Assembly (NCBI GenBank): GCA_002457745.1
Contig: NTKV01000008.1
Coordinates: forward strand, 1 to 34,331
Reading direction: 5' to 3'
Origin: SAR116 cluster bacterium MED-G06
Lineage (GTDB): Bacteria; Pseudomonadota; Alphaproteobacteria; Puniceispirillales; Puniceispirillaceae
DNA: 34,331 nucleotides
The translations under genes were made by a program, and so were the position numbers. This document shows positions 2,315 through 14,301 of the stretch, piece by piece. Under the pieces are notes generated by a model. That model was not told the DNA's origin and searched no databases. It saw only the letters and a program-made list of their open reading frames with translations. Position 1 is the first letter of the stretch; each line of letters begins with the position of its first letter.

Positions 2315-2470
2315 CTGTCCGCAGGTCCGGCCACCGCTTGCTTTGGGTCGTAGATGACCGGTTTGCGGCACAATGCTGTCAAGCTTTGGCCCTTTTTCAT
2401 CGGTAACCCGGATGGACGGTGGGTGAAGCGCATGAGGCCTTCGCCAGCTCTGGATGAGGGAGATGACCAG

Positions 2471-3163
2471 ATGGGAACGCGAATTGCGCTTGTTGATGAT
2501 GACCAGAACATCCTGACATCGGTGTCACTGACACTGGAAAGCGAAGGGTTCGAGGTCGATTGCTATCATGATGGCGAATCAGCACTTCGTGGCCTGGCAC
2601 GTCGACCGGTGGAACTGGCTGTTCTCGACATCAAGATGCCGCGCATGGACGGCATGGAGCTTCTTCAGAAAATCCGTGCCGGGTCCAGCCTTCCGGTGAT
2701 CTTCCTGACCAGCAAGGACGACGAGCTCGACGAGGCGCTCGGCCTTGGCATGGGTGCCGATGACTACATCACAAAGCCGTTTTCACAGCGTCTTCTTCTG
2801 GCCCGCATCCGCGCTGTTCTGCGCCGCGCCGGGCAGGAGGGTGTGGATCCCACCAGCCCCAATATTGTCCAACAGGGCGAGCTTCTGATGGACCCCGACA
2901 GGCATCTGTGCAGCTGGAAGGGCACTGAAGTGAAGCTGACCGTCACCGAATTCCTGATCCTCCAGGCGCTGGCCTCGCGCCCCGGCATGGTGAAGAACCG
3001 GGATCAGCTGATGGACGCCGCCTATGGTGAGTCCGTCTTTCTTGATGACCGCACGATCGACAGCCACATCAAGCGGCTTCGTCGCAAGATCAGGGCGCAG
3101 GACAAGGAATTCGACAATATCGAAACGCTGTATGGCATCGGGTATAAATACCGGGCATCCTGA
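2471..3163 (+). CDS. chvI: Two-component response regulator ChvI
   Basis: OmpR-type response regulator of the ChvG-ChvI envelope/acid-stress system known from Agrobacterium and Sinorhizobium. The receiver domain has the acidic pocket VDDDQN at residues 8-13, phospho-acceptor Asp53 in [11 protein letters not shown], Thr80 and Lys102 in ITKPF. A C-terminal winged helix follows, with [13 protein letters not shown] and [15 protein letters not shown]. The phrases [13 protein letters not shown] and [13 protein letters not shown] match ChvI closely. I chose ATG 2471 (230 aa) because it is preceded by GAGGGAGA at good spacing and begins exactly where family members begin; the frame is open further upstream but nothing recognisable is encoded there. 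Its kinase chvG starts 64 bases downstream, so the two are very likely co-transcribed. The 156 bases upstream hold no promoter I can call confidently. Confidence 0.93.
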
Positions 3164-3227
3164 TTGCGGGCCGCGGCATCGCCCCGGCACCCAGAATGGA
3201 TGGCCATAACAGAGTGATGGTGCCAGC

Positions 3228-4865
3228 GTGATCGCAACGATCAAATCCCGGATCCGGCGGCTTCTTGGTCGTGGTGCCATCGGCCGGCCGCTTGTCAGGC
3301 TGCGGTTCCGGATGAGCCGGCTGAGCACGCGGATCATGGCGATCATGATGTTTCCGCTGGTGCTGTTCTTTGTCGGGCTGTTCTCGATTGACCAGTACCG
3401 TACAACCCTGATCCAGTCCGAATTCACCGCCTTGGAACGTCAGGGTTTCACATTGGCGCGCTCGCTGGCGCTGGCGCAGTCGGAAATCGATGGTGGCCTT
3501 GCCAGACGCCGGCTGTCCCCAGAGACAATGAACCATCTTCTGCCGCTGGTCGGCTATGGCACCGAGCTGCGCGCCCGTGTCTTTCGCCATGATGGCAGAC
3601 TGCTTGCCGATACGGCGCGGTCAGGTTCCGGTGGATCGGTACGGTTGCGTCGGCGCGCCCCGCAGGATGCCTGGAAGCGCACTTCGGACTATTTCCAGAT
3701 CATGATGCGCCGCGCCGCCGGCATGATCGGCACCGACCGGACGCTTCCTGTCTATCGTGAGCCGCGCCGGCAGAATGCCAATGATTATGACGAGGTGGTG
3801 ATGGCTCTGGCCGGAGAGCCGGCACGGCAACTCAGGCAGGACATACGTGGCAGGCTGGTGCTGTCGGTGGCGGTTCCGATTCAGGATCTGCGTCTGGTGC
3901 GCGGGGCGCTGCTGGTCAGCGTCAGCGGCGGCAAGATCGAGACCGAGATAGCCGACGTCAATGTGGTCTTCATCAAGCTGTTTGGCATTGTCACCCTGAT
4001 CACCATCGCGCTCAGCGTCTGGCTGGCGCGGTCCATCACCACGCCGATCACCTATCTTGCTGCAGAGGCCGACAATCTTCGTCGCAGTCGTGATCTGTCG
4101 GCGCGCATGCAGCGTCTGCCCCGCCGCCGGGACGAGATCGGCAAGCTGTCCGAATCGCTGATCGAGATGACAGACGACCTGCAGAAGCGGATGGCCGCGA
4201 CCGCCGGTTTTGCGGCTGATGTTGCGCATGAGCTGAAGAACCCGCTGTCCTCGCTGCGAAGTGCCGCCGAAACGATCAGCCGGATTTCCGATGCGAAGCA
4301 GCAGCAGAAGCTGATGAATGTCATCCTTCGCGATGTGGCACGTCTTGACAGGCTGATCACCGATATTTCGCGGGCCAGCCGCCTTGATAACGAGATGGCG
4401 GTCGAGGCAGCGGCAACCTTTGACCTTCGTGACCTTGCCGGCAATTTTGTCGAGGCGCGGGCAGACACCACCGCTGGCCACAGACTTGTTGCGGAACTCC
4501 CGGAAGCGGCAGTGATGGTCCGCGCGCAGGATGGCAGGATTGTCCAGATCCTCGACAACCTGCTTGCCAATGCCGTGTCCTTCGCGCCAGCCGACAGCGA
4601 GATCACGTTCCGTCTGACAAGTGACGGCAAGGGGCAGGCCAGTCTGTCGGTCCATGACCGTGGTCCGGGCATCCCGGCGGGGCGGCTTGAGGATGTGTTC
4701 AACCGATTCTATTCCGAGCGGCCCGCCGGAGAGGCGTTTGGCGAGCATTCGGGGCTTGGCCTGTCGATCGCGAAGCAGATTGCCCAGGGCTATGGCGGTG
4801 ACCTGACCGCTGCCAATGACGAAGGCGCCTGTTTCACCCTCACGCTTCCGACTGTCTCTGCATGA
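3228..4865 (+). CDS. chvG: Sensor histidine kinase ChvG
   Basis: Inner-membrane sensor kinase that phosphorylates ChvI. Order of parts: a basic cytoplasmic N-terminus, first membrane segment about residues 35-56 (IMAIMMFPLVLFFVGLFSI), a periplasmic sensor of about 190 residues, second membrane segment near 245-266 (LFGIVTLITIALSVWLA), HAMP linker, and dimerisation/phosphoacceptor helix with His334 in FAADVAHELKNPLSSLRSA. The ATPase follows with N box (ILDNLLANAVSFAP), G1 (VHDRGPGIP), F box (VFNRFYS) and G2 (SGLGLSIAKQI). At 545 aa it is a normal length for ChvG. The start is GTG 3228 with a weak ribosome site; an in-frame ATG at 3312 would still keep the first membrane segment. In many alphaproteobacteria chvG is followed by hprK; here rapZ follows directly. 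Confidence 0.93.
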   Translation: MIATIKSRIRRLLGRGAIGRPLVRLRFRMSRLSTRIMAIMMFPLVLFFVGLFSIDQYRTTLIQSEFTALERQGFTLARSLALAQSEIDGGLARRRLSPETMNHLLPLVGYGTELRARVFRHDGRLLADTARSGSGGSVRLRRRAPQDAWKRTSDYFQIMMRRAAGMIGTDRTLPVYREPRRQNANDYDEVVMALAGEPARQLRQDIRGRLVLSVAVPIQDLRLVRGALLVSVSGGKIETEIADVNVVFIKLFGIVTLITIALSVWLARSITTPITYLAAEADNLRRSRDLSARMQRLPRRRDEIGKLSESLIEMTDDLQKRMAATAGFAADVAHELKNPLSSLRSAAETISRISDAKQQQKLMNVILRDVARLDRLITDISRASRLDNEMAVEAAATFDLRDLAGNFVEARADTTAGHRLVAELPEAAVMVRAQDGRIVQILDNLLANAVSFAPADSEITFRLTSDGKGQASLSVHDRGPGIPAGRLEDVFNRFYSERPAGEAFGEHSGLGLSIAKQIAQGYGGDLTAANDEGACFTLTLPTVSA

Positions 4866-4937
4866 CAGGCAGCGGGGGTGGCCTGACCTGTCCTGTTTCG
4901 TTTGGGCCAACGCTGGCAACATGGTTATGATGTGACG

Positions 4938-5810
4938 ATGGATGATTCACCGCCACGCCTGATTCTGGTGACTGGGGCCTCCGGCGCCGGCCTCTCGACC
5001 GCCCTCAATATCCTTGAGGATGTGGGAATCATGGCTGTGGACAATTTGCCGATTGCCATGATCGACACGCTGGTCGCGCTTGAGGTCGAAACCGGTGGGC
5101 GTAGCCTTGCCATCGGTCTTGATGTGCGCACGACAGGGTTTTCTCCAGAGGCTGTGGAAACCCTGGTGGGCAACCTTCGGCGCAAGTTCGGGGCGCAATT
5201 CACCAGCGTTTTCCTGTCCGCATCGCGTGATGACCTGCTGCGCCGTTTCAACGCCACCAGACGGCAGCATCCGTTGCAGCATATCGGATCGCTGGAAGAG
5301 GCGATCTCGGCTGATCTGGCGCGCATGGACCAGGTGATGCCGCATGGCGATATCCAGATCGACACCAGTGCCGCGAAGCCGTCAGACCTCCGGCAGTCCT
5401 TGCTCTCCAGGCTGGAGATGGACAAGGAGTTCCAGATCCAGGTGCGGCTGTTGAGTTTTTCCTACAGGCGGCGATTGCCGGACCATAGCGACCTTGTCAT
5501 CGACATGCGGTTTGCCAGCAACCCGCATTGGGTGGCCGAGCTGCGCCAGTTTGACGGCCGTGATCCGCGGGTGATCACCTATCTTGAGGCGGACGAGGTT
5601 GCGCTTGGCGTGATCGACTCGGTGAAAAGTATGCTGGTTCAGATGCTGCCACGCATGTCCCTCGAGGGCAGACCAATCCTGACCGTCGCTTTCGGGTGCA
5701 CCGGGGGAAAACACCGGTCTGTCTGGGCCACCGAAACAGTGGGGAAATGGCTTCGCGATGAGGGCTATAGTGTGAAGGTGGCGCATCGCGAGATAGACGC
5801 AGGATCCTGA
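4938..5810 (+). CDS. rapZ: RapZ-family RNase adapter / nucleotide-binding protein
   Basis: RapZ (YvcJ/DUF in older lists) is a two-domain protein; in E. coli it presents the small RNA GlmZ to RNase E and so controls amino-sugar synthesis. The N-terminal P-loop domain is seen as VTGASGAGLST at residues 11-21, followed by ALNILEDVGIMAVDNLP. The C-terminal domain has the family signature FGCTGGKHRSVWATE. Length, 290 aa, is typical. I prefer ATG 4938; the frame runs back to a TTG at 4902 but the extra residues do not look like RapZ. The P-loop has Leu19 where the classical Walker A Lys stands, so nucleotide binding may be altered. The usual alphaproteobacterial neighbours hprK upstream and EIIA-Man/HPr downstream are not here. 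Function in alphaproteobacteria is not well known; the family call is firm. Confidence 0.9.
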   Translation: MDDSPPRLILVTGASGAGLSTALNILEDVGIMAVDNLPIAMIDTLVALEVETGGRSLAIGLDVRTTGFSPEAVETLVGNLRRKFGAQFTSVFLSASRDDLLRRFNATRRQHPLQHIGSLEEAISADLARMDQVMPHGDIQIDTSAAKPSDLRQSLLSRLEMDKEFQIQVRLLSFSYRRRLPDHSDLVIDMRFASNPHWVAELRQFDGRDPRVITYLEADEVALGVIDSVKSMLVQMLPRMSLEGRPILTVAFGCTGGKHRSVWATETVGKWLRDEGYSVKVAHREIDAGS

Positions 5811-5837
5811 CTGGTCAGTCGTTATGACCCATGATGC

Positions 5838-5857
5838 CGCAAGCGGGTTTCCTTGCG
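5838..5857 (+). other. Short hairpin in the rapZ-ahcY gap
   Basis: A perfect 6-bp stem (CGCAAG / CTTGCG) with an 8-base loop lies between rapZ and ahcY. No T-tract follows, so it is a poor intrinsic terminator. It does not match the SAH or SAM riboswitch consensus patterns I know. It may be part of the ahcY leader; role unknown. Confidence 0.3.
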
Positions 5858-5908
5858 ACAGGATATCTGATATGGCTCCCCATCTTCCTGATCAAAGCGA
5901 GTGTGACG

Positions 5909-7303
5909 ATGTCGACAGATTTCATCATTGCGGATGCCTCCCTTGCCGAATGGGGCCGCAAGGAACTTTCCATTGCAGAAACCGAAATGCCGGGCCTGAT
6001 GGCTCTGCGTGACGAATTTGGCGCATCCAAGCCGCTTGCGGGCGCGCGTGTCGCCGGATGTTTGCACATGACCGTCCAGACAGCGGTTCTGATCGAGACG
6101 CTGACAGCGCTCGGTGCGGATGTGCGCTGGGCCTCCTGCAACATCTTTTCAACCCAGGATCAGGCCGCTGCGGCGATTGCTGCCGCTGGTGTGCCGGTCT
6201 TCGCCAAGAAGGGTGAGACACTGGCTGAATACTGGGAATATGTTGACCGCATCTTCGACTGGTCGGATGGCGGTAGCGCCAACATGATCCTCGATGATGG
6301 CGGTGATGCCACCATGTATATCCTTCTTGGTGCCCGCGCCGAAGCTGGCGAGGACGTCCTCGCCATGCCGTCGAGCGAGGAAGAGGAATTCCTGAAAGCA
6401 CAGATTCATACCCGTCTTGCCAGCAGCCCGGGGTGGTTCACCCGTCAGCGCGATGCCATCAAGGGTGTGTCGGAGGAAACCACAACCGGTGTCCTTCGTC
6501 TGTACCAGCTTGCCGAGGCAGGCGGTCTGCCATTCCCGGCGATCAATGTGAATGACAGCGTCACCAAGTCGAAGTTCGACAATCTGTATGGCTGTCGTGA
6601 GTCGCTTGTTGACGGCATTCGCCGCGCAACTGACGTGATGCTGGCTGGCAAGGTGGCTGTTGTTGCCGGCTATGGTGATGTCGGCAAGGGATCAGCCGCC
6701 TCGCTTCGTCAGGGTGGCGCGCGCGTCATGGTTACCGAAGTCGACCCGATCTGCGCCCTGCAGGCGGCGATGGAAGGCTATGAGGTCGTGACCATGGAGC
6801 AGGCCGCACCGAAGGCCGATATCTTTGTGACCGCGACCGGCAACAAGGATGTCATCACCATGGATCATATGCGCGACATGAAAGATCGCGCCATCGTCTG
6901 CAACATCGGTCATTTCGATAACGAGATCCAGGTGTCCTCGCTGCAGAACATGAACTGGTCCGAGATCAAGCCACAGGTTGACGAGGTCGAGTTCCCCGAC
7001 GGCAAGCGGATCATCATGCTGGCCAAGGGCCGCCTGGTGAACCTCGGATGTGCCACCGGTCACCCGTCCTTCGTGATGTCTGCCTCCTTCACCAACCAGG
7101 TGCTGGCTCAGATGGAACTGTGGAATGAAGGCGGATCCTACGAGCACAAGGTCTACACCTTGCCGCGGCATCTCGATGAGAAGGTGGCAGCCCTCCATCT
7201 TGCCAAGGTTGGCGCGACCCTGTCGCAGCTGAATTCCGATCAGGCAGCCTATATCGGCGTCGAGCAGCAGGGGCCGTTCAAGGGCGACCAGTACCGCTAC
7301 TAG
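5909..7303 (+). CDS. ahcY: Adenosylhomocysteinase (SAH hydrolase)
   Basis: Hydrolyses S-adenosylhomocysteine to adenosine and homocysteine, removing the product inhibitor of methyltransferases and feeding methionine resynthesis. The N-terminal part has [16 protein letters not shown] and [16 protein letters not shown]. The NAD-binding Rossmann core has [18 protein letters not shown], and the C-terminus ends in the family-typical GDQYRY. At 464 aa it has normal length and includes the roughly 40-residue insertion of the bacterial long form. I chose ATG 5909 (MSTDFIIAD); the frame is open to 5831 but those 26 residues are hydrophobic and unlike the family. The ribosome site is weak. It is followed after 5 bases by tsaE, so the two are probably one transcript. 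The demand for SAH removal fits the methyl-group chemistry encoded at the right end, but that link is inference. Confidence 0.96.
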
Positions 7304-7308
7304 GCCGG

Positions 7309-7791
7309 ATGAACCGCCGCGAGATCATACTTTGCGACCCGGCCGCGACCACGCGGCTGGGTTTTTTGTTGGCTGGAGCGCTCCGCACCGGCGATGTGAT
7401 TGCCCTCAGCGGCGCCCTTGGCGCTGGCAAGTCGGTGCTGGCACGCGGCATCGTGCTGGCGCTTTGTCCGGATGAGGCTGATATCCCCAGTCCGACCTTC
7501 ACGCTTGTCCAGACCTATGAGCCTGCAGACGGCCCATCCCTGATGCATTTCGATCTCTACCGTCTGGAATCGGCCGAGGAAGCGCTCGATCTTGGTATCG
7601 AGGATGCCTTTGTCGAGGCGGTGTCACTGATCGAATGGCCGGAACGGCTTGGCCCCTGGCTGCCGCGCGGCGCACTTCGCATCTCGCTGGCGCCAGATGA
7701 CAGCTCACCGGAAATGCGCGTTGCCACGCTTGAGGGAGGCCCCCGCTGGCACCCTGTCATGGATCAGGCAAGCAGCCTTTTCACCGAATGA
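7309..7791 (+). CDS. tsaE: tRNA threonylcarbamoyladenosine biosynthesis ATPase TsaE
   Basis: TsaE is the ATPase partner of TsaB/TsaD in making t6A37 on ANN-decoding tRNAs. The P-loop is LSGALGAGKSVLARGI, followed by the family block SPTFTLVQTYE, and the Walker B-like region LMHFDLYRLES with LIEWPERL. Length, 160 aa, is standard. It starts 5 bases after the ahcY stop. In many alphaproteobacteria tsaE is followed by an aminoglycoside-phosphotransferase-like kinase (amgK) and a nucleotidyltransferase (murU) before addB; here only 75 bases separate it from the addB part of the next gene. Confidence 0.93.
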   Translation: MNRREIILCDPAATTRLGFLLAGALRTGDVIALSGALGAGKSVLARGIVLALCPDEADIPSPTFTLVQTYEPADGPSLMHFDLYRLESAEEALDLGIEDAFVEAVSLIEWPERLGPWLPRGALRISLAPDDSSPEMRVATLEGGPRWHPVMDQASSLFTE

Positions 7792-7854
7792 TGCAATCGT
7801 CATGTCTCACTTGAATTTGTAGCGCGCGGCCTCGTCTTTGCGCGGCGTTGCTTC

Positions 7855-7860
7855 TATAGT
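7855..7860 (+). promoter_or_regulatory. Possible -10 box giving a leaderless addBA transcript
   Basis: TATAGT matches five of six -10 consensus bases and ends 6 bases before ATG 7867, which would place transcription start at or very near the A of the ATG. There is no good Shine-Dalgarno sequence and no good -35 at 16-18 bases. Leaderless mRNAs are common in alphaproteobacteria, but this call rests on one hexamer. Confidence 0.25.
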
Positions 7861-7866
7861 GGCGGG

Positions 7867-10800
7867 ATGACGCCGCTGCCTTCCCGTCACGACCGAATCC
7901 ACACCATTCCGGCCGGAGTGCCCTTTGCCATGTCGCTTGCCGCTGGTATCCGGCGTCTTGCCGATGGGCCGGAGGCCTTGGCCCGCGCCACCATTCTTGT
8001 GCCCTCACGCCGGGCGGCGCAATCGCTCCGCGCCGCTTTTCTGCAAACCCTTGGTGATGGTGCGGCGCTGCTGCCACGGATCGACCCGATCGGTGATGTC
8101 GAGGAGGAATCCCCCGACATGCTGGATTTCGGCGCGGATGCGCCATCGCTTCCCCCGGCGATGGACCCGCTTCGCCGGCAGCTGTGGCTGGCCCGTCTTC
8201 TCGAAGGATTTCGCCTTGGCGATGTTGCGCCAACCCCGCCACAGGCCATGCGGCTTGCCGACTCGCTGGCGCGGCTTCTTGATTCGCTGTGCAATGCCGA
8301 CGCCACACCCGAAATGCTGCGCGATCTCCTTCCCGACAGGTTCTCGCGCCATTGGCAGGACATCCTGAAACTGCTGTCCATCCTGATCGACCGGTGGCCG
8401 GCGATCCTCGAGGAGCAGGGCGTGATTGACGCTGCCGACCGGCGCAACAGGCTGGTCAGGCTTCGCTGTGATGTCTGGCGGCAGCGGCAACCGGATGACC
8501 TGATCATCGTTGCCGGATCGACCGGTACCTTTGCGGCGACGCGCGAGCTGATTGCCTGTGTCGCCGATCTGCCAAGTGGACATGTCGTGCTGCCTGGCTT
8601 GGATCGCGGGGCAACAGGTCACTGGGATCTGGTGCGCAGCGAAAGCGGCCACCCTCAACATCAGCTCTCGGTGCTTCTCGACAGTCTCGAGGTGACACCG
8701 GAGGCGGTTCGCGACTGGCCCGCGCTTGTCGATCAGCAGGAGGTGAGCCAGCGCCGTCGGGACCTGATGCGCGAGGTGTTCAAGCCGGCGGCGCTGACTG
8801 CCGACTGGCGGCGGCTTGGCAGCACCCATCCGGAGCTTGGTCGTGATTCACTCGATGGTCTGACGATGGTTGACTGCGCCACCCGCGCTGAGGAAGCGGC
8901 CCTGGTGGCACTGGCGATGCGCGAGGTGCTGGAAACCCCGCAGCGCACCGCCGCGCTGGTGACGCCGGACAGGCAGCTTGCCGAGGCGGTGATTGCGGCA
9001 CTTCGACGGTGGCGGATCGATGTGGATGATTCTGCCGGAAGGCCGCTTACGCAATGCCCGGTTGGTGGTTACTTGCAAAGCCTTGTGACCATGCTGGCCG
9101 AGGATTTTGCGCCGGTGCCGACCCTGGCCTTCCTGAAACATCCGCTGGCATCCGGCGGGGTGCCACCAGCCATCTTCCGCGCCCGGGTGCGGACTTTGGA
9201 AATTGATGGCATCCGTGGCTATCGCCCGGCCCCGGGTCTTCAGGGGCTGCGCGACAGGCTTGCCGGGCATGAGGAACTTGCCAGCTTTTTCGATCATGCC
9301 ATCGCGGCGCCGCTGGCCGGTCTCGTCGCCGCCTGGCAGTCGCCGGCTCCCAGCCTTGCCTCGCTGGCGATCGCGCTTGGCGATGCGGCGGAGCGAATGG
9401 CGGCGCGGTCACGCGATGCTGATGGTGGTGCGGACGCGGCAGACGGGGCGCTTCATCTGTGGGCCAACGAGGATGGTGAGGCGGCGGCGATGCTGCTGGC
9501 GTCACTTACCGAACAGGGCGAAGGCTTTGCCACGGATATTGAGTCCTTTCCGCACATCATGGCCCAGCTTCTGGCCGACCGGACGGTGCGGCGCACCTGG
9601 CAGACCCACCCCCGGCTGGCCATTCTCGGCCCGGTCGAGGCGCGGATGCAGAGCGCTGACAGGCTGATCCTTGGCGGCTTCAATGAAGGCAACTGGCCAC
9701 CCCGCCCCGAGATCGACCCCTGGACCAATGGTGAGATGCGCCGCGCTGCCGGGTTGCAGCCGCATAACTGGCGTACCGGACTGAGCGCGCATGATGTCTG
9801 GATGGCCAGCTGCGCACCGGAGGTCATCATCACCCGCGCCCTTCGTGACGGTGATGCCGCGACCACGGCAAGCCGCTGGCGGCAGCGCTTTGATGCTGTC
9901 ACCAAGGCGCTGAGCATCGAGGGGGCTGTGGACCGGGGGCAGCGCTGGCGTGATGCAATGATGGCGATGACACCTGTGCCGGTGATGGTGCCGGTGACCC
10001 GGCCACGTCCGGCACCGCCGGTTGCGGCGCGTCCACGCCGCTTTTCGGCAACCGAGATTGATGACTGGATTGCCGATCCCTACAGCCTCTATGCCAAACG
10101 CATTCTGCAGCTTCGCCCGCAGGAGGATCTCGACCGGCCGATCGATGCGGCGCTTCGCGGCAATCTGGTGCATGACGCTCTTGCCGCCTTCCTCAAGGAC
10201 CACCCCGCCGGCAGTCTTCCCGAGGATGCGCTGGCGCGGCTTCGCGCGACGGCACGCCGCCTGTTCGAACCGTACTGGCAGAATCCGACGGTGCGGCATT
10301 TCTGGTGGCCGGCCTTCGAGACGATTTCCGCCTGGTTCATCGAAACCGAAGTCAACCGCCGCGCGACCATTCTGGAAAGCCATGCCGAGATCAAGGGACG
10401 GATCGAGGTCGAGGCCCCGGCGGGGCCGGTCATCTTCACGGCCCGCGCCGACAGGATCGACCGGCTGGCGGGTGGCGGTCTGGCGGTTCTCGACTACAAG
10501 ACCGGCAGGGCTCCGACAAAGGCCGCTGTCGCCAAGCGTCGACGCACCCAGCTTCTTGTGGAATCGGTGATTGCCGCGCGCGGCGGGTTCGAGGGGCTGG
10601 ACAGCGCCGTTGTCGAGGCGATGGAATATTGGCGACTGACCGGCAGGAGTGACGAGCCGGCGCAGCGTGTCGATGTGCGTCCCGATGACTGGTCGGCAGA
10701 GGATGATTTCGACATGCTGGCGCGGTTGGCGACGGATTTCGACGCGCCCACCACCGCCTATGCCAGCCTTCCTGATCCGGCCATCGGCCCGGCTTTTCCG

Positions 10801-13800
10801 CAATATGACCATCTGGCGCGTGTTGATGAATGGCGGCTTGCCGAACATGGCCGTCCGGACGCGGCGCCGGTCATGGCTGCGGCTGATCATGCCATTGTCG
10901 AGGCGCCGGGGTTCGATCCGCATGTCGCATCGGATGCGTCCAGCCGGCAGGCGGCGGCGTCCGATCCCGGAACCTCGGTCTTTGTCTCGGCGAATGCCGG
11001 CACCGGCAAGACCAAGCTGTTGACCGACCGGGTGCTGCGGCTGATGCTTCAGGGGGCGGCACCTGACAGCATTCTGTGTGTCACCTATACCCGCGCCGCG
11101 GCGGCAGAGATGCGCAACCGCATTTCGGGCAAGCTGGCGGACTGGACAGTCAGTTCCAGCGAGGCGCTGCTTGACGATCTTCGTGGGATGGGGATCGGCG
11201 TCCCCGCGCAGGAGATGCTGGGGCGGGCCCGAAGCCTGTTTGCCGAAATTCTGGACAATGATGACGGCCCGCGGGTGGAGACGGTGCATTCCTTCTGCCA
11301 GTCGGTGCTGCGCCGCTTCCCGATCGAGGCCGGCATCGTGCCGCAGGCCGAGCTTGCCGACACGTTCGAGCAGGGGCGGATGAAGGCCGAGGCGCGTGAC
11401 AATCTGCTGCGGCGCGCCGACCCGGATCTGGCACGGTTGATCGGACGGCTGGCGTCGCAGACAAGCGAGGGCAATGCCGAGACGCTTCTTGATGAACTTC
11501 TGGACAAGGAAGGACGGCTTGCCGACCCGGACATCGAGCTTCGGCTGAAGACGCATTTTGCCGAGGGGCGGGGAATCGACCCGGCGCTCGATCTGGACCA
11601 GGTGATCGAGGCGCTTGTCGCGGATCTCGACATCGAAGGGCTTCGTGCCAGCGCCGCCGCGCTGACGCAAAGCGGTGTTGCGGGTCAGATGAGGCGCGCC
11701 ACAAAGATCACTGCCTGGCTTGGTGAGGATGATGACGGGCGACGGCGGCATATTGACCGGCTGATTGCGGCGCTGTTTGGCAGCAATGGTCCGCTCAGTG
11801 AACGCAGCCTGTCGAACAAGGATATTCGCGATGCCTTCCCGCGCGTTGTCGAGGTGCAACAGACCACGCAACAGGCGTTGTCCGGGCTGATCGCGACCCG
11901 CGCGGCGCAACGCTGCCGTGACCTGACTGGCGCATTGTACGGATTTGGCCGCGCCTTTCAGGATGAATATGAAACGCTGAAGACCCGCCGCGGCCTTCTC
12001 GATTATGACGATCTGATCAGGCTGACAAATGCGATGCTTGCCGATGGCGACGCGGCGCAATGGGTTGCGTGGAAGCTTGATAACGGGGTTCATCATCTGC
12101 TTCTTGACGAGGCGCAGGATACCAGCCCGGCACAGTGGCAGCTTTTGCGCCGGCTTGGTGACGAATTCTTCGAGGCCGCCGGTGAGACCTCCGCAGATTC
12201 TGGCCCCCGCACCCTGTTTGTCGTCGGTGACTTCAAACAGTCGATCTATTCCTTTCAGGGGGCTGATCCGGTGGTGATGGGCCGGAACAGGCTGGAGCTT
12301 CATGACCGGGCCGGCACATTGGCGGCACCCTGGCGCGAGGTCGGGCTTGATGTGTCCTTCCGCTCGGCGCGACCGATCCTTGATCTTGTCAATCTGGTGG
12401 TGCCAGCGCTTGATGGCATCACAGACCCGCGCATGCCGGGATTTCAGGCACACCGGTCGGCACGCCGCGATGCTGGTGGCTTTGTCGAGGTGCTGCCGGT
12501 TGTGGCCGAGGATGAGGCACCGGTTGACCCGCCTGCCTTCGCCCCGCCGGAAATCCGTGAGCCGCGTGACGCTGCGGCACAGTCGGCAGCGAAGCTTGCT
12601 GAAATGCTGTCAGAGTGGATCGGTCAGCGCAGACTTCCCTCTGGTCGGCTGATGCGGGCTGGTGATGTCATGGTGCTGCTGCGATCGCGCGGGCGATATC
12701 ACCGGCTGTTGCTGGCGGCGCTGCAGCAGGCCGGCATTCCGGTGGCCGGTGCCGACAGGATGAAGCTGGAGGACCAGATCGAGATCCAGGACCTTCTTGC
12801 GCTTGGTGATGTCATGCTTCTTCCCGAGGATGACTTGCAGCTGGCGGCGGTGTTGAAATCGCCCCTCATCGGCATTGATGAGGAGACGTTGTTCACCCTG
12901 GCGCATGATCGTGGTGGCAGGAGCCTTCATGCCTGTCTGATGGCGCATGCTGGCGGTGACAGCGCGCTTGGCAGGGTGGCAGACCGGGTGATCCGGCTTC
13001 GTGAGCTTGCCGAGGGCCAGTCGGTGTTCGGCTTCTACAGCAGCGTGCTGATCGAGGCGCGCCAGGATTTCCGGCGGCGTCTCGGCGCGGCGGTGGATGA
13101 AACGCTGGATCATTTCCTCACACTGGCGCAGGCGTTCGGCAGTGCTGGCGGTGTGTCGCTGACCGGCTTTCTGGCGCAGCTTCGCGGCAGCGGCGGTGAG
13201 GTGCGACGCGACATGGATAGCGATGGTGCCGATCAGGTGCGTGTGATGACCATTCATGGCGCCAAGGGTCTGGAGGCGCCGGTGGTGGTGCTTCCCGATA
13301 TGCTGGCACCGGTCTCGCGCATTCCCGAACAGCTTGTCCGCGACCCGCAGAGTGGATTTGTCTATTGGGCCCCGGGCGGGGTGCGCCCCGACTTTGTCTC
13401 CGAGGCCCGCGACAGGGCCCGTGAACGCGAGGATGAGGAGGAGAACCGGCTTCTCTATGTTGCGCTGACCCGGGCCCGCGACGGCATTGTCATCGGTGGC
13501 TGGCAGGCACAGCATCGCCGGCGGCTTGAGGCAAGCCACTATGAACGTCTTCATGCGGCGGTGTCCGGCATGGAGGGAGTCGAGGCGGATGCGGACGGCA
13601 CCCTTCGGCTCAACACCGAGGGTGCTCTGCCAGCAGGAAATCAGGGGCTGCCGGTGCCACCCCCGGTCGAAGACAGCCGGCCGGTGCCGGACTGGCTGTT
13701 CCGCGATGCGCCAGAAGAACCGCGCCCGCCACGCCCGCTTCGCCCGTCACAGCCGGATGGCCGGGCCCAGACTGCGCGCGCCCCGGGAAGCCGTCTTGCC

Positions 13801-14301
13801 GCTTCGCGTGCGCTGGCCCGTGGGCGGCTGGCGCACCGGTTGTTCGAGGTGCTGCCGATGATCGAGCCGGCCCGGCGGAGTGCTGTTCGTGATGCGATGC
13901 TTGCGGCGCAGGTGGATGTGCCGGCTGACCAGGCAGCGCAACTGGCGGCTGAGGTCGAAGCGGTGATGGATCTTGCCGCACTCGCGCCGGTGTTCGGACC
14001 CGATGCGCTTGCCGAAATATCCGTCAGCGGGGTGATTGACGGCATCGGTGTTGCCGGCCAGATCGACAGGCTTCATGTCGACGAAACACGCGTCCTTGTC
14101 GCCGATTTCAAGACTGGTCCGCGTCCGTCGCAGACGCCACTGGACTATGTCAGACAGATGGCGCTCTATGCAGCGCTGCTGGAACAGATCTATCCGGGGC
14201 GTCAGGTCACCACCTGGCTTGTCTGGACCGAGGCCTGTGCCATAGAAGAGCTGGACAGGACCGCGCGCGCAGCGGCGCTGGCACCGGCAACATCTGTCTG
14301 A
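7867..14301 (+). CDS. addBA: AddB-AddA fusion: helicase-nuclease for double-strand break repair
   Basis: One uninterrupted 2144-residue frame encodes both subunits of the AddAB recombination enzyme, normally two genes. Residues 1-995 are alphaproteobacterial AddB: ILVPSRRAAQSLRAAFLQ near the N-terminus, the inactivated-helicase body, a RecB-type nuclease with FSATEIDDWIADPYSLYAKR and LDYKTG (Asp876, Lys878), and the AddB terminal block HLARVDEW (982-989). About 40 residues of linker follow. AddA begins near 1003: Walker A ANAGTGKTK (Lys1048), CVTYTRAAAAEM, motif II LLLDEAQDTSPAQW (1411-1424), VVGDFKQSIYSFQGADP, VMTIHGAKGLEAPVVV, motif VI LLYVALTRARDG, and a second nuclease with VADFKTG (Asp2080, Lys2082). 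Both halves are full length. The AddB half has no cysteine cluster around its nuclease, so the Fe-S staple of Bacillus AddB is absent. A TATAGT box at 7855-7860 sits just before the start. Confidence 0.93.
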   Translation: MTPLPSRHDRIHTIPAGVPFAMSLAAGIRRLADGPEALARATILVPSRRAAQSLRAAFLQTLGDGAALLPRIDPIGDVEEESPDMLDFGADAPSLPPAMDPLRRQLWLARLLEGFRLGDVAPTPPQAMRLADSLARLLDSLCNADATPEMLRDLLPDRFSRHWQDILKLLSILIDRWPAILEEQGVIDAADRRNRLVRLRCDVWRQRQPDDLIIVAGSTGTFAATRELIACVADLPSGHVVLPGLDRGATGHWDLVRSESGHPQHQLSVLLDSLEVTPEAVRDWPALVDQQEVSQRRRDLMREVFKPAALTADWRRLGSTHPELGRDSLDGLTMVDCATRAEEAALVALAMREVLETPQRTAALVTPDRQLAEAVIAALRRWRIDVDDSAGRPLTQCPVGGYLQSLVTMLAEDFAPVPTLAFLKHPLASGGVPPAIFRARVRTLEIDGIRGYRPAPGLQGLRDRLAGHEELASFFDHAIAAPLAGLVAAWQSPAPSLASLAIALGDAAERMAARSRDADGGADAADGALHLWANEDGEAAAMLLASLTEQGEGFATDIESFPHIMAQLLADRTVRRTWQTHPRLAILGPVEARMQSADRLILGGFNEGNWPPRPEIDPWTNGEMRRAAGLQPHNWRTGLSAHDVWMASCAPEVIITRALRDGDAATTASRWRQRFDAVTKALSIEGAVDRGQRWRDAMMAMTPVPVMVPVTRPRPAPPVAARPRRFSATEIDDWIADPYSLYAKRILQLRPQEDLDRPIDAALRGNLVHDALAAFLKDHPAGSLPEDALARLRATARRLFEPYWQNPTVRHFWWPAFETISAWFIETEVNRRATILESHAEIKGRIEVEAPAGPVIFTARADRIDRLAGGGLAVLDYKTGRAPTKAAVAKRRRTQLLVESVIAARGGFEGLDSAVVEAMEYWRLTGRSDEPAQRVDVRPDDWSAEDDFDMLARLATDFDAPTTAYASLPDPAIGPAFPQYDHLARVDEWRLAEHGRPDAAPVMAAADHAIVEAPGFDPHVASDASSRQAAASDPGTSVFVSANAGTGKTKLLTDRVLRLMLQGAAPDSILCVTYTRAAAAEMRNRISGKLADWTVSSSEALLDDLRGMGIGVPAQEMLGRARSLFAEILDNDDGPRVETVHSFCQSVLRRFPIEAGIVPQAELADTFEQGRMKAEARDNLLRRADPDLARLIGRLASQTSEGNAETLLDELLDKEGRLADPDIELRLKTHFAEGRGIDPALDLDQVIEALVADLDIEGLRASAAALTQSGVAGQMRRATKITAWLGEDDDGRRRHIDRLIAALFGSNGPLSERSLSNKDIRDAFPRVVEVQQTTQQALSGLIATRAAQRCRDLTGALYGFGRAFQDEYETLKTRRGLLDYDDLIRLTNAMLADGDAAQWVAWKLDNGVHHLLLDEAQDTSPAQWQLLRRLGDEFFEAAGETSADSGPRTLFVVGDFKQSIYSFQGADPVVMGRNRLELHDRAGTLAAPWREVGLDVSFRSARPILDLVNLVVPALDGITDPRMPGFQAHRSARRDAGGFVEVLPVVAEDEAPVDPPAFAPPEIREPRDAAAQSAAKLAEMLSEWIGQRRLPSGRLMRAGDVMVLLRSRGRYHRLLLAALQQAGIPVAGADRMKLEDQIEIQDLLALGDVMLLPEDDLQLAAVLKSPLIGIDEETLFTLAHDRGGRSLHACLMAHAGGDSALGRVADRVIRLRELAEGQSVFGFYSSVLIEARQDFRRRLGAAVDETLDHFLTLAQAFGSAGGVSLTGFLAQLRGSGGEVRRDMDSDGADQVRVMTIHGAKGLEAPVVVLPDMLAPVSRIPEQLVRDPQSGFVYWAPGGVRPDFVSEARDRAREREDEEENRLLYVALTRARDGIVIGGWQAQHRRRLEASHYERLHAAVSGMEGVEADADGTLRLNTEGALPAGNQGLPVPPPVEDSRPVPDWLFRDAPEEPRPPRPLRPSQPDGRAQTARAPGSRLAASRALARGRLAHRLFEVLPMIEPARRSAVRDAMLAAQVDVPADQAAQLAAEVEAVMDLAALAPVFGPDALAEISVSGVIDGIGVAGQIDRLHVDETRVLVADFKTGPRPSQTPLDYVRQMALYAALLEQIYPGRQVTTWLVWTEACAIEELDRTARAAALAPATSV

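Follow-up and report, generated by a model that had tools for sequence, protein, structure and literature searches.

Are the two subunits of the AddAB helicase-nuclease encoded as one chain in SAR116 cluster bacterium MED-G06? The question is raised by a 34,331-nucleotide stretch of contig NTKV01000008.1 (here called the window), which belongs to a draft metagenome assembly of 1.67 Mb in 85 contigs and carries, at positions 7867..14301 of the forward strand, a frame of 2144 amino acids plus stop that is open throughout, its sole stop being terminal. A sequence-only reading had described this frame as AddB and AddA joined in one 2144-residue chain. The family models for both proteins scored above their cut-offs within the single open frame, and the AddB-AddA gene fusion is real and genus-wide.

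The fused gene and its two halves

The AddB half (residues 1-990; 7867..10836, forward strand, as for all features below unless stated) matched the TIGR02786 model, addB_alphas, from residue 10 to residue 990 (profile positions 1-1024 of 1024; 828.4 bits against a cut-off of 486.5), and the AddA half (residues 1027-2144; 10945..14298) matched TIGR02784, addA_alphas, from residue 1027 to residue 2127 (profile positions 2-1136 of 1138; 923.3 bits against a cut-off of 860.75). Both are alphaproteobacterial equivalog models. A PD-(D/E)XK nuclease domain was found in AddB at residues 725-953 (10039..10725; PF12705, PDDEXK_1), with H769, D862, D876-Y-K878 and Q895 invariant in a six-row alignment. 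The UvrD/Rep helicase N-terminal region of AddA occupied residues 1026-1471 (10942..12279; PF00580, UvrD-helicase) and included the Walker A motif SANAGTGKT at residues 1041-1049 (10987..11013), recognized by sequence and conservation and present in 11 of 11 genus sequences. Among the genus sequences that extend far enough, motif VI was kept in 9/9 and motif V in 9/9 (one with GSK for GAK), as were the D-x-K and Q of the AddA C-terminal nuclease (9/9), which in the window are D2067, D2080-F-K2082 and Q2097 (residues 2060-2100; 14044..14166), assigned from genus conservation. The near-whole profile matches and the conserved nuclease and helicase motifs uphold the earlier claim that both halves are full length with both nuclease sites, and LARVDEW, at residues 983-989, and Lys1048 of Walker A lie where that reading had placed them.

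The locus was found in 11 of the 12 genomes searched in the genus, and the junction was free of stops in all 11. Eight of the 11, including the window's, were full-length single frames (2156-2179 codons from stop to stop), the seven others showing 61-75% identity to that of the window; in the remaining three (G008, G009 and G011) contig ends cut the locus and the junction was open. A stop or frameshift at this point in close relatives had been named beforehand as the observation that would speak against a fusion, and none of the congeneric loci had one. Six of the 11 recur with identical sequence as L032, L033, L034, L035, L036 and L048; these are the same genomes and add no evidence. No addBA locus was found in G006, which is 58% complete. 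A second addA or addB copy was not found in the genus genomes, except for a short split-type fragment in G009 that is probably foreign. This fragment (L051, contig 25 of G009) is a short contig in which a peptidase-like start is joined to a split-type addB end and an addA start, and it is probably foreign or misassembled.

Selection was examined by pairwise Nei-Gojobori ratios of nonsynonymous to synonymous substitution rates (dN/dS) for seven pairs of fused genus sequences, two of them without AddA C-terminal data (contig end). The AddB and AddA regions gave values of 0.04-0.34, a range from which one 28-codon AddA cell without amino-acid change was excluded, and the linker between them gave 0.09-0.69, which is noisy, as it was calculated over 33-38 codons with several pairs near synonymous saturation. 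L006/L007, the least diverged pair for which the data were complete (dS 0.25-0.42), gave 0.08-0.14 in the domains and 0.25 in the linker. Both halves are under purifying selection and the linker is variable.

A 983-amino-acid frame also spans the junction on the opposite strand (9502-12453, reverse). It was rejected as a gene and taken as a shadow open reading frame, since, of the fused genus loci compared, none but the window's own carries an antisense frame of at least 900 amino acids.

The junction and the split relatives

The linker (residues 991-1026; 10837..10944) was delimited by alignment, match boundaries and dN/dS. Some 36 residues separate the end of the AddB match (990) from the start of the AddA match (1026-1027), so that the earlier estimate of about 40 residues was right for the linker proper; from W989 to K1048 there are 59 residues. 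Across the genus, the linkers measure 34-45 amino acids between the two matches, and both sequence and length vary between species.

A search of the family matched 52 of 61 genomes, with fused loci only in the window's genus; the other genera (SAR116/Puniceispirillum relatives) gave separate AddB and AddA matches. In the five split family loci inspected (L089, L090, L091, L092 and L094), the addA ATG overlaps the addB stop by 8 nucleotides in the +1 frame, and GGAG or GAGG, a Shine-Dalgarno-like sequence, lies upstream of that ATG. In the split sisters L043, L090, L091, L092 and L094, AddB terminates 7-8 residues past the EW of the LAR..EW block, and AddA starts roughly 7-13 residues ahead of the conserved stretch that leads to Walker A. 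Because the split genes overlap in the +1 frame and the fused genus has an in-frame linker, fusion required a net frame change, beyond the loss of a stop.

This need for a frame change, together with the draft metagenome origin of the assembly, would be expected if an assembly or sequencing indel had joined two ordinary overlapping genes. However, all 11 congeneric loci, at 61-76% identity and from several projects, are open across the junction, and their linkers differ between species, unlike a copied assembly error; such an artefact is rejected.

By family model, the window's addBA is preceded by tsaE and followed by trxA, folC and accD, and the split sister L043 has matching neighbours by size and order (lengths only). 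Within 2354-7866 of the window, the order is a chvI-like regulator, a chvG-like kinase, rapZ, ahcY and tsaE, then addBA; of the genes between chvG and ahcY only rapZ is noteworthy, and amgK-murU is absent between tsaE and addB. In one SAR116 relative (L044 and L067, both from G064), a frame change near the position equivalent to residue 1225 of the window protein interrupts addA, through either sequencing error or decay.

A second fusion in family f31

The sequence-only reading had allowed that the fusion might be unique. It is not, being genus-wide and accompanied by a second, independent fusion in another alphaproteobacterial family, f31, the sole family in its order. In a class sample of 144 genomes, of which 129 matched, two further unbroken fused frames were found, both in f31; a further draw of 231 genomes from the class, which overlapped the first, contributed no new unbroken fusion among the eight listed at E 1e-250 or better. 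Within f31, 12 of 16 genomes matched and eight had unbroken full-length frames; three more (G219, G226 and G230) were limited by contig ends and open across the junction, and in G231 the match fell into two pieces, of which one spans the junction. No AddBA match at 1e-60 was found in the other four f31 genomes, all of genus g43 (G224, G227, G228 and G229; 97-98% complete, 4-8% contamination). The frame L114, from G103 of f31, has 2153 amino acids and scored above both cut-offs (AddB 936 bits, AddA 1143.9 bits), in a locus ordered amgK-murU-addBA-trxA with folC and accD further along. Six f31 loci were rich in guanine plus cytosine (65-74%), a composition at which long frames are commoner, yet even there a normal addB stop would terminate the frame. 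The f31 fusion shares the AddB-AddA order with the window's genus and differs in its linkers, in having amgK-murU directly upstream and, as judged from the trees, in its origin.

Trees were built for each half from 48 rows, 16 fused and 32 split, using LG+C20 with posterior mean site frequencies for AddB and LG+G4 for AddA. The window's genus formed one clade amid split relatives, with support of 100/100 in both trees, and f31 formed another, apart from it (97/99 for AddB, 100/99 for AddA). Two changes between the fused and split states were required on each tree. A single fused clade was rejected for AddA by the approximately unbiased (AU) test (p-AU 1.36e-10; AddA tree only). One ancestral fusion lost many times is disfavoured, since two changes suffice per tree and the single fused clade was rejected for AddA. 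Change counts alone cannot separate gain from loss; gain is preferred on account of the split sisters and the split outgroups on both sides. The best reading of the trees is that the fusion arose at least twice, independently. Family models, relatives, selection and trees agree, and together they support a true fusion with both halves intact.

Beyond the class, a sample of the phylum Pseudomonadota matched 57 of 179 genomes and held no fusion besides the window's. Three candidates, G167, G171 and G457, each appeared as a single match with an internal stop. They were rejected as fusions because that stop falls precisely at the boundary of the two proteins, making them separate in-frame genes. 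It is plausible that these tandem in-frame pairs represent a half-way state in other lineages. G218, a 0.9-Mb genome, also has stops at the junction and was classed as split. At the junctions of L109, L110 and L125, from three other families, addB and addA share a frame with one stop between them, one point mutation short of fusion.

The predicted single-chain enzyme and its meaning

The best interpretation of these data, to which we assign a probability of about 0.88, is that addB and addA fused in the common ancestor of this genus, within the SAR116 family, and that the product is a functional single-chain AddBA helicase-nuclease. The overlapping stop and start of the split arrangement (8 nucleotides in the +1 frame, served by a Shine-Dalgarno-like site of its own) would have given way to an in-frame, unconserved linker of ~34-45 residues. 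The AddB half (scaffold and C-terminal nuclease) would thereby be tied by its C terminus to the N terminus of the AddA half (superfamily 1 helicase and C-terminal nuclease), in a chain order that mirrors the operon order. From what is known of the family, the tied chain, flexibly tethered by the linker, most likely folds like the AddAB heterodimer and would resect double-strand ends as AddAB does, using the AddA motor and two nucleases. Translational coupling would be replaced by obligate 1:1 assembly in cis, and this architecture would bring with it a fixed 1:1 stoichiometry. An intact chain in the cell, an AddAB-like fold, activity and any Chi regulation are predictions from sequence.

It could be that the chain is a polyprotein, cleaved in a flexible linker to act as the usual heterodimer of AddA and AddB. 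The length and variability of the linker would suit such processing; an alignment of the 11 fused sequences showed no conserved motif there, and this alternative is improbable.

Three observations weigh against the single-chain interpretation. The window genome is a draft that is only 67% complete, yet G001 (99% complete, 20 contigs) agrees with it. Structure predictions were of low confidence, with a mean predicted local distance difference test score (pLDDT) of 42.4 for residues 715-1530 (7 sequences) and 42.0 for residues 1-1200 (6 sequences), most likely because the alignments were shallow. Finally, 7 of the 11 fused genus sequences share a GTG that is in frame and stands 25 codons ahead of the Walker A glycine, and from such an internal start in the linker AddA might additionally be made alone. 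This GTG is missing from the window's copy and has no Shine-Dalgarno-like site nearby. A scan was made for in-frame ATG, GTG or TTG within the 75 codons that lead up to the Walker A glycine, with a Shine-Dalgarno-like motif 5-14 bases upstream, and its f31 part covered seven of eight loci, L113 being left out. GGAG, GAGG, AGGA or AAGG preceded a candidate start in none of the 11 fused genus sequences, whereas all five inspected split sisters have GGAG or GAGG; GGTG alone was found in two of the 11, at differing positions. Separate production of AddA from within the fused gene is therefore very unlikely.

Alphaproteobacterial AddAB consists of two overlapping genes, while in the window's genus there is one polypeptide with a linker of 34-45 amino acids; both halves are otherwise alike in the two systems, passing the curated cut-offs and carrying the helicase and two nuclease motif sets. 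AddAB is described as two separate polypeptides, and here all 11 relatives that have the locus carry it as a single frame. By homology the predicted protein belongs to the AddAB family, and by architecture it is a fused variant of it. RecBCD is a break-resecting helicase-nuclease of the same functional class. It differs from the system found here, as recC was detected in 0 of the 12 genus genomes (E. coli recC was detected as a positive control) and the RecB model reached 163.6 bits against a cut-off of 696. The AddAB of the Bacillus subtilis type is a two-chain heterodimer, and the Bacillus-type AddB carries cysteines for an iron-sulphur cluster. Among solved chains, the AddA of this enzyme is the closest in sequence (PDB 3u44 plus four other entries; E 3.7e-27, residues 1032-1887), and the AddB chain of the solved structures gave no sequence match from the window protein in the same search. 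No cysteine occurs in residues 725-990, so the iron-sulphur cysteines of the Bacillus type are without counterpart; TIGR02786 does not require them, and their absence is perhaps a trait of alphaproteobacterial AddB generally.

The main comparative survey is that of Cromie in 2009. A natural AddB-AddA fusion is not reported in the open-access literature searched, as far as the accessible text of these papers goes (among them PMC1839093, PMC5101192, PMC11143384 and PMC5704561), which agrees with the earlier statement that none had been described; an earlier mention elsewhere is possible. UvrD-Cas4-like nuclease fusions, distinct from AddB-AddA, are reported in PMC5704561.

Whether the join confers a benefit is a separate matter. 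A neutral join, in which the enzyme works and drift fixed the fused state without any effect on function, competes with an adaptive reading and not with the fusion itself. Broad sampling of the class turned up no more than two origins, and the in-frame pairs one stop from fusion (G167, G171 and G457) indicate that mutation can readily make the step in some lineages. On the other side, retention of the fusion throughout the window's genus, where identity falls to 61%, and in five genera of f31 shows tolerance, not benefit. Drift must be taken seriously as an alternative to adaptation, and we give it close to an even chance. Only tentatively, and as the less likely account, can the joining of AddB and AddA be proposed as a recurrent adaptive step in Alphaproteobacteria, yielding in at least two lineages a single-chain double-nuclease motor without free subunits.

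Where subunit loss hampers single-molecule or structural studies, a complex helicase-nuclease that occurs naturally as one gene and one chain would be useful, and the fusions allow it to be asked if tying the subunits alters processivity or Chi control. Two independent fusions also constrain the geometry of AddAB, in that the AddB C terminus must reach the AddA N terminus across about 26-45 residues. Were the joining indeed recurrent and adaptive, assembly, stoichiometry and perhaps nuclease control in these bacteria would differ from those of all AddAB enzymes studied to date.

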